Shown here: positions 3,111-57,829 of the stretch, piece by piece
How positions within the stretch are numbered: position 1 is the stretch's first letter
Layout of the letters: each line of letters opens with the position of its first letter
The notes under the pieces: generated by a model
Told to the model about the DNA's origin: nothing
What the model saw: only the letters and a program-made list of their open reading frames with translations
Databases searched by the model: none
Source: Dehalococcoidia bacterium
GTDB taxonomy: Bacteria > Chloroflexota > Dehalococcoidia > CAUJGQ01
DNA length: 64,000 nt
Direction: 5' to 3'
Assembly: GCA_035310145.1 (NCBI GenBank)
Contig: DATGEL010000047.1
Span: 1-64,000 of the forward strand
Made by a program: the position numbers and the translations under genes

Positions 3111-3143
3111 CGCCACGGCGTGCGGTTCACGCACCGCCGCCCT

Positions 3144-3178
3144 GTTCCCCGTTCCGTGTTCCACGTTCCCTGTCACCC
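3144..3178. repeat. Degenerate heptanucleotide repeat (GTTCCNN x5)
   Basis: Five in-phase heptamers GTTCCCC, GTTCCGT, GTTCCAC, GTTCCCT, GTCACCC between lysA and holB. The period is kept while the last bases vary, as expected for an ageing tandem array. Confidence 0.75.
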
Positions 3179-4624: not shown

Positions 4625-4666
4625 CGGGTGTCGGGTGTCGGGTGTCGGGTGTCGGGTGTCGGGTGT
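4625..4666. repeat. Perfect heptanucleotide tandem repeat (CGGGTGT x6)
   Basis: Six uninterrupted identical copies of CGGGTGT upstream of lysA. Perfect identity suggests recent expansion by slippage, so copy number may vary between strains. Confidence 0.95.
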
Positions 4667-4782
4667 AAGGAAGCGGTAAGGCGCATGTGAGCCGTATATC
4701 AAGCAGCCGCCCGGGCCGCGCGGCATGATGAGTTCACGAGGTCAGGGCGCGGCCTTCCCCGGACCCCTCGAACCATTAAGAC

Positions 4783-4854
4783 ATGGTTTCATAACCGGCG
4801 CGAGTTCCCGCTTGCAGGCGTGTGATCGCACGTGAACGCCGGTTTTGAAGCCAT
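4783..4854 (+). repeat. 72-bp dispersed palindromic element, copy A
   Basis: Begins ATGGTTTCATAACCGGC and ends GCCGGTTTTGAAGCCAT, imperfect terminal inverted repeats of about 17 bp. The core contains CGCTTGCAGGCGTGTGATCG. The reverse complement of 57735-57806 aligns to it over the full 72 bases without gaps. The two copies are inverted relative to each other. It carries no gene. Confidence 0.85.
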
Positions 4855-5067
4855 CGGTAACCCACCGGCGGACGGCTCGCGATGTTGCCTCCCACCGCGG
4901 CCCGCCCGCTGCCCAACGGCCCCGCCCGGCGTGCCGCCTTTCCCCAGCGGCCCGCCGGGACGGGGCCTTTTCGCGTACTGCCGCCGTCTGCCCGGACAGC
5001 CATGCTCCCAGCATCGACGAAACCCGCGGCTCGCAATGCCGGTGACCTGCTGAAACGGCCTCGGCCC

Positions 5068-6359: not shown

Positions 6360-6459
6360 CGCTGGGACTGGTACAACGATTCGGACTTTTATCTCTTCTT
6401 TCTTGCAAATTCAGCCTGCCCGCCCGCCGATCACGCCGCGGCCCGGCGCCGCCCGTACG

Positions 6460-6508
6460 GTTCCCTGTTCCCCGTCGCCGGTTCCCTGTACCCTGTCACC
6501 TGTCACCC
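6460..6508. repeat. Heptanucleotide repeat, seven in-phase units
   Basis: GTTCCCT, GTTCCCC, GTCGCCG, GTTCCCT, GTACCCT, GTCACCT, GTCACCC, ending 20 bases before the ATG of the MBL gene. It therefore lies in that gene's probable 5' leader. Confidence 0.8.
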
Positions 6509-56807: not shown

Positions 56808-57731
56808 ATGGACGATCTCGACCGGCGCATTATCGAGGAATTGCAGCTCGACCCGCGGGTGTCCTACGCCGCGCTGGGCAAGCAGCTCGGCGTCTCCGGC
56901 ATGACCGCGGCCACGCGGCTCAACCGCCTGCGCGACACGGAGCTGCTGCGCTGCCGGGCGCTGCCCAACCTGGCGCAGCTCGGCCTCACAACCGAGGTCT
57001 TCGGCTTCGTGCAGACCGAGCTTGGGGCGCTGCCCGAGATCCTGGCGATCCTGCGCACCTCGCCGTATGTGCTGCGGGCCGACCGCGTGACGGGCGAGTT
57101 CGAGCTGGGCTTCCAGGCGGCGCTGCCCTCAGAGACGGCGCTCGGCAGCCTGATGCGCGAGCTGCAGGGCGTGCGCGGCCTGCGCCGGCTGGTGATCCAC
57201 CACGTGCTCGAAACCGTGAAGCAGGACGACGGCTGGGCGGCCGTGTTCGCCGACGACGCGCCCAAAGCGGAGGCGCCGTACGAGCTGGCGCCCGGCGCCA
57301 CGCTGCCGAAGGCGCTGGAGCCGAAGGTGGCGCTGGCCGCCGCCTGGGTCGACGCGCTCGTGCGCGCCGACGGCGAGCGGCTGCGCCAGCTGTCGGCGCC
57401 GGAGATTGTCTACACGCTCAGCGAGCCGCACCCCGCCGCCGGCACCTGGCAGGGCATCGCTGCGATCGAAGAACAGGCGCAGCGCACGCGGCAAGCCTAC
57501 CGGCGGCTGTGGTACCGCATCGTGCACGTGGCCGAGGCGCAGGAGCCGTACGCGATCGTGATCGACGCGCTCAGCCCGGTGGAGACGCGCCGCGGCAACG
57601 TGGGCACGGCCTTCTCACGCCTGGCCTTCGCCTTCGCCAACAACCGCGTCGAGCGCGTCACCAACCTCGGCCAGATGACGATCCCCGACGTCTCGCTGGG
57701 CGGGCCGTTCTACCCCAAGCTGCCGGGCTAA
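56808..57731 (+). CDS. Lrp/AsnC-type regulator fused to a SnoaL-like domain
   Basis: 307 residues. N-terminal winged HTH (LDRRIIEELQLDPRVSYAALGKQLGVSGMTAATRLNRLRD, residues 3-42), then a RAM-like ligand domain (LGLTTEVFGFVQTELGALPEIL ... VLRADRVTGEFELGFQAAL). From ~residue 180 a second domain (KVALAAAWVDALVRADGERLRQLSAPEIVYTL) fits the SnoaL/NTF2-like fold. This fusion would couple DNA binding to a small ligand. It probably controls the divergent cupin gene and/or itself. A 72-bp element copy begins three bases after the stop. Confidence 0.82.
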   Translation: MDDLDRRIIEELQLDPRVSYAALGKQLGVSGMTAATRLNRLRDTELLRCRALPNLAQLGLTTEVFGFVQTELGALPEILAILRTSPYVLRADRVTGEFELGFQAALPSETALGSLMRELQGVRGLRRLVIHHVLETVKQDDGWAAVFADDAPKAEAPYELAPGATLPKALEPKVALAAAWVDALVRADGERLRQLSAPEIVYTLSEPHPAAGTWQGIAAIEEQAQRTRQAYRRLWYRIVHVAEAQEPYAIVIDALSPVETRRGNVGTAFSRLAFAFANNRVERVTNLGQMTIPDVSLGGPFYPKLPG

Positions 57732-57734
57732 GAC

Positions 57735-57806
57735 ATGGGTTCAAAACCGGCGTTCACATGCGATCGCACACCTGCAAGCGGAAACCCGAGCCGGTTTTGA
57801 ACCCAT
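57735..57806 (-). repeat. 72-bp dispersed palindromic element, copy B
   Basis: Perfect 17-bp terminal inverted repeats ATGGGTTCAAAACCGGC / GCCGGTTTTGAACCCAT. Core TGCGATCGCA is itself palindromic. In reverse complement it aligns to 4783-4854 without gaps. It lies between two convergent genes, where it could also act as a bidirectional terminator. Confidence 0.88.
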
Positions 57807-57829
57807 CCGTAAGACGGGAAGCGCCCGCG

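Follow-up and report, generated by a model that had tools for sequence, protein, structure and literature searches.

A repeat that occurs twice in the window, the whole 64,000-nucleotide stretch analysed here, belongs to a family dispersed through its host genome, and we consider it very likely that this 78-bp repeat is a non-autonomous transposon, a MITE. The preliminary description had suggested a MITE-like mobile unit, and terminal inverted repeats, a 3-bp target-site duplication (TSD), dispersed near-identical copies and empty sites restored in genes all bear this out. The family is new and ordinary in its class; it is unusual in its tiny, near-constant size, in the full turnover of its spacer and in the frequent inversion of that spacer.

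Two copies of a 78-bp element in the window

Positions 4783-4854 and 57735-57806 form the window's longest inverted repeat, 72 nt aligned without gaps at 88% identity, far above chance. This had been read as a 72-bp element present twice in opposite orientation. The inverted pair is real, but the unit is 78 bp and only its 38-bp spacer is inverted: the left end is GAC in both copies and the right end is CTG-derived (CGG in copy A, CCG in copy B), and because these asymmetric ends agree, A and B lie in the same orientation. Other parts of the preliminary description stood as given. Copy B has 17-bp arms that match one another perfectly and a central palindrome, TGCGATCGCA (the equivalent in copy A is TGTGATCGCA), the ends of copy A have diverged so that its arms mismatch one another at two positions, and both copies are intergenic relative to the predicted genes. 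Folded as single-stranded DNA, both performed much better than their dinucleotide shuffles (z = -3.75 for copy A and -5.72 for copy B) in the folding check that had been suggested. The features of the two copies are as follows.

4777-4779, no strand: left TSD of copy A, TAA (sequence and TSD statistics)
4780-4857, + strand: copy A, full 78-bp element with GAC...CGG ends (sequence, BLAST and covariance model)
4783-4799, + strand: left arm of copy A, 17 bp, one change from the consensus
4800-4837, - strand: spacer of copy A, 38 bp, type A, inverted relative to the copy B spacer
4838-4854, - strand: right arm of copy A, 17 bp, one change from the consensus
4858-4860, no strand: right TSD of copy A, TAA
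57729-57731, no strand: left TSD of copy B, TAA, which doubles as the stop codon of the + strand predicted gene at 56808-57731
57732-57809, + strand: copy B, full 78-bp element with GAC...CCG ends (sequence, BLAST and covariance model)
57735-57751, + strand: left arm of copy B, 17 bp, ATGGGTTC..., with its change mirrored in the opposite arm
57752-57789, + strand: spacer of copy B, 38 bp, type A
57790-57806, - strand: right arm of copy B, 17 bp
57810-57812, no strand: right TSD of copy B, TAA

Several intergenic gaps of the window (4625-4666, 1956-1983, 3140-3173 and 6458-6497) also contain heptamer-type tandem repeats (CGGGTGT six times, TTCCCTG four times, and relatives).

A family of at least 66 copies in one genome

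Searching the host genome (a 5.32-Mb draft in 148 contigs) with the repeat by BLAST returned about 40 places. The 17-bp arm, with up to three mismatches allowed, occurred 136 times genome-wide versus 3 times for a reversed control pattern, and a covariance model of the arms with a free spacer gave 137 hits over both strands. After locus retrieval, the catalogue contained 66 distinct elements on many contigs, so that the genome holds at least that number. Two copies had been taken to imply a genome family, the opposite case being that only these two exist; at least 66 are present, though none was found in relatives.

Alignment of the copies gave a 78-bp consensus, GAC-ATGGTTTCAAAACCGGC-N38-GCCGGTTTTGAAACCAT-CTG, with 17-bp arms and a 38-nt spacer. 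Among the 53 copies that we class as well preserved (no more than four arm changes), the end triplets GAC/CTG are kept in 43, and the arms mismatch one another at zero to four positions, such that terminal inverted repeats are present at both ends. Young copies have near-identical arms, with the whole unit identical at separate loci. The 78-bp element is short and encodes no transposase.

Two spacerless perfect palindromes with element-like flanks and arms, at L171 2001-2056 (C120:92189-92244; GTTAGACATGCTTTCAGAACCGGCGGG/CCCGCCGG...) and L173 2001-2050 (C42:78936-78985; CAGATGGTTTCATCGCCGGCG/CGCCGGCG...), are perhaps collapsed relatives that have lost the spacer. Single orphan arms at L182 around 1899-1915 (C31:49910-49926), where the arm abuts a complete element, and at L118 2001 (C84:3960) are remnants of broken copies.

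We found no copies in 59 relatives, in plasmids, or in the sister genus with fuller scoring, where the sole hit was a chance one (E = 0.58). None was seen among 392 relatives of the same class (393 genomes including the host) in a coarse, weak scan that scored 11 candidates per genome, and GTDB contigs and IMG/VR viral contigs together yielded 12 matches, all single, unpaired and attributable to chance. Within these collections, from which entries for this genome or very close ones may be missing, the family was found only in the genome of this bacterium.

Insertion into CTWAG duplicates three base pairs

Identical 3-bp flanks border 29 of the 53 well-preserved copies (TAA/TAA in 19, TTA/TTA in 10), and the outer bases around the duplication are C...G in 31 of 53. 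The reconstructed target logo reads C-T-W-A-G and shows no clear preference beyond these five positions; copies with mismatching TSDs also occur. The proposed search for target duplications thus returned a 3-bp TWA duplication inside C-TWA-G.

The duplication also bears on the idea that the family is of the REP/REPIN kind, in which inverted palindromes are moved by a RAYT (Y1 transposase) via single-stranded DNA. Such repeats are likewise palindromic, dispersed, mostly intergenic and of similar size, around 70-80 bp, with a strong hairpin. To our knowledge, however, Y1 transposition makes no target duplication, whereas this family has one; its spacers are unrelated to each other; and PF01797 (Y1_Tnp) was not found in the host genome, although 6 of 14 control genomes were positive. 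The REP/RAYT reading offered in the preliminary description is accordingly highly improbable, by a small margin the least credible of those considered.

Copies inside genes and the restoration of empty sites

Three of the 53 well-preserved copies, all with perfect arms, lie within open reading frames, which encode a short-chain dehydrogenase (SDR), a tandem UspA protein and a Uma2-type protein. All three are in frame, the 78 bp plus 3 bp adding 81 bp or 27 codons, and their shared frame translates as (W)FQNR...AGFET. When the element and one TSD (81 bp) were excised in silico from the SDR gene, the adh_short score rose from 160.3 to 176.1 bits and two matching stretches became one; the same removal from the Uma2 protein raised its Pfam match from 42.9 to 56.6 bits, with the match now reaching the end of the profile. 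Since removing 81 bp restores single Pfam matches, the pre-insertion sequence was an intact gene. A fourth candidate in-gene copy (L090) was rejected, as it sits at a stop codon.

At the SDR locus (L140 1505-1582, contig C50), a young copy splits the catalytic YxxxK between T and K (YTTT, then K) while the reading frame stays open; the gene carrying this insertion is probably inactive.

The in-frame copies invite a comparison with Rickettsia palindromic elements (RPE; PMC10969869), palindromes able to sit in frame within protein genes and add a peptide, and raise the question of whether the 81-bp insertion is selected to stay translatable. The three in-gene copies share one open frame, and by our own count about 11 of 13 unrelated 38-nt spacers keep that frame open whichever way they face. 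Yet just 3 of the 53 well-preserved copies are genic (3 of about 66 overall, unlike RPE, from which the family also differs in being shorter and in having clear TSDs), 8 of 20 genic target sites are already in that frame so that three out of three is not significant (approximately 0.06), a 79-bp subfamily of five copies with intact arms would shift the frame, and one copy splits a catalytic motif. Selection as a protein-inserting element is therefore improbable.

Target choice accounts for the intergenic position

For one-third of the genome, gene calls came from a simple script, with codon usage learned from the window, rather than from a full gene finder; 83% of this third was coding. The host genome is 69% G+C, and CTWAG is rare in it, falling mostly outside coding sequence or at stop codons: in the gene-called third, empty CTWAG sites were non-coding in 103 of 123 cases by a stricter count, and 22 of 130 were at stop codons. 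Elements were not significantly rarer in genes than their target sites (3/53 versus 20/123, Fisher p = 0.085). Copies thus collect between genes because the sites that they can enter are rare and mostly lie there or at stop codons, and as location follows target choice, the intergenic position is no evidence of regulation. The preliminary description had taken it to support a regulatory role, an argument undercut by the distribution of the empty sites.

A related proposal was a conserved structured RNA, terminator or regulatory hairpin under host selection. The arms do covary and fold far better than shuffles, and many copies lie 3' of genes. That position, however, follows the TAA target, given that empty CTWAG sites are also found at stop codons; TSDs and in-gene copies show insertion; the family was not found in the sister genus; an Rfam search of the window gave no match above the gathering score; the spacers are unrelated in sequence and fold like shuffles (mean z = -0.10); and the conserved arm sequence lacks a T-run. 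We regard this proposal as highly improbable.

Spacer turnover at constant length

Searching for arm ends without imposed spacing gave pairing at 72 nt, with a few pairs at 68-73. The catalogue admitted spacings of 62-81 nt, and its arm-to-arm lengths were 72 (51 copies), 73 (6), 71 (4), 70 (2), 69 (2) and 68 (1), with the spacer at 38 ± 1 nt in 61 of 66 copies. Across 45 well-preserved 72-nt units, mean identity was 93% in the arms and 68% in the spacers, with a minimum of 21%. Spacer type A accounts for 36 copies in 24 versions connected by around 70 substitutions in a minimum spanning tree; the other spacers fall into types B and C, plus about ten singletons in which no relation could be recognised. 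Folding of the spacers, equal to that of shuffles, revealed no hidden structure. Given unrelated spacers of equal length, we favour a transposase requirement over a low indel rate as the reason for the constant 38 ± 1 nt.

Spacer inversion and mirrored arms

Relative to the GAC/CTG ends, type A spacers face one way in 19 copies and the other way in 17, and the commonest exact spacer occurs in its two orientations in 3 and 5 copies. The arms showed 8 double changes, compared to 1.2 in shuffles, indicating covariation. In L112, L141 (copy B), L149 and L169, the two arms together carry 2-4 changes relative to the consensus, with zero mismatch between them. Polymerase template switching at short inverted repeats has been described as producing arm homogenisation and spacer inversion together (PMC8604942; also PMC8794818). 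Judging by this known signature, template switching is the likely source of both the flips and the mirrored arms.

Inversion might instead be coupled to transposition, with a symmetric 72-bp hairpin moving, GAC/CTG being set at insertion and spacer orientation falling at random in each insertion. The roughly 1:1 orientation even among identical spacers and the near invariance of GAC/CTG (43/53) are consistent with this. Template switching, however, yields the same picture and additionally explains the mirrored arm changes, whereas coupling needs three end bases to be set at insertion, for which we know of no DDE mechanism; we consider coupling unlikely. Slightly less likely still is its fullest form, a MITE that keeps only its ends and length as a hairpin-capable symmetric unit, with the spacer flipping at or near every transposition and the trinucleotide ends rebuilt in each insertion. 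If true, a flip at every transposition would be a route undescribed for DDE-type MITEs.

A probable IS5/PHIS-type mobiliser

A 3-bp TNA duplication within C-TNA-G has a documented precedent in NuwaII, a member of the PHIS superfamily, to which bacterial IS5 is related (PMC4482050). From the target and the 3-bp duplication, we infer that the mobiliser is more probably than otherwise an IS5/PHIS (Harbinger)-type DDE transposase. The likeness to IS5/PHIS elements, including NuwaII, extends to the host genome, which contains IS5-type transposase genes and two IS ends, truncated by contig ends, that follow CTAA; the differences are that the family's end sequences do not match the IS ends seen, that an autonomous GACATGG-ended copy was not found and that, compared to the NuwaII target, the 78-bp family has A or T at the N position in almost every case.

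The 17-bp arm, with up to three mismatches, identified no autonomous partner in the whole draft genome, a draft that may lack multi-copy ISs. Looser end pairs (TWA[CG]A[CG]ATG[GC]) revealed no coding element with matching ends in 1.7 Mb, about one-third of the genome, and the ISs found via PF01609, PF13359 and PF13340 had no ends matching the 78-bp element. An autonomous partner with matching ends is typical of MITEs and is not required for the class. Because the ends of the host's IS5-type elements, GAGCCTAACCC / GAACCTATCCC at contig ends, are unlike GACATGG, we do not trace the element to any of the ISs encountered in this genome.

One IS5-type element starts after CTAA and runs off the ends of contigs C39 (L137 1452-1675) and C79 (L138 1457-1675); it is probably an IS present in multiple copies that the assembly lacks.

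Model and comparison with other MITEs

In our model, a transposase acting in trans would bind the two ends of around 20 bp and excise the element, and a 3-bp staggered insertion into C-TWA-G would duplicate TWA, producing the structure and duplication seen in the copies. Only the ends and their rough distance (78 bp) would need to be retained, leaving the spacer free to change, the pattern found among the copies. The hairpin-forming arms may then provoke template switching during replication, which would copy arm onto arm and flip the spacer.

The family resembles other bacterial MITEs (Correia, ERIC, RUP, Nezha and Chunjie; PMC10969869) in being short and non-autonomous, with terminal inverted repeats, a direct TSD, many mostly intergenic copies and a strong hairpin. 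It differs in being far shorter and near-constant in length (Chunjie and QMITE vary strongly), in its CTWAG target and in spacers that are many unrelated sequences in both orientations.

The family shows that an intergenic bias of repeats can be a by-product of CTWAG target choice rather than of regulation. It further documents how, at short inverted repeats in a bacterium, one arm is copied onto the other and the spacer flips, a mutation process usually inferred from few events; its 66 copies amount to many replicates, and how often flips separate copies that are otherwise identical could serve to measure that process. As a natural record, the family shows what an inverted-repeat transposon must keep: its ends and their spacing, and nothing else.
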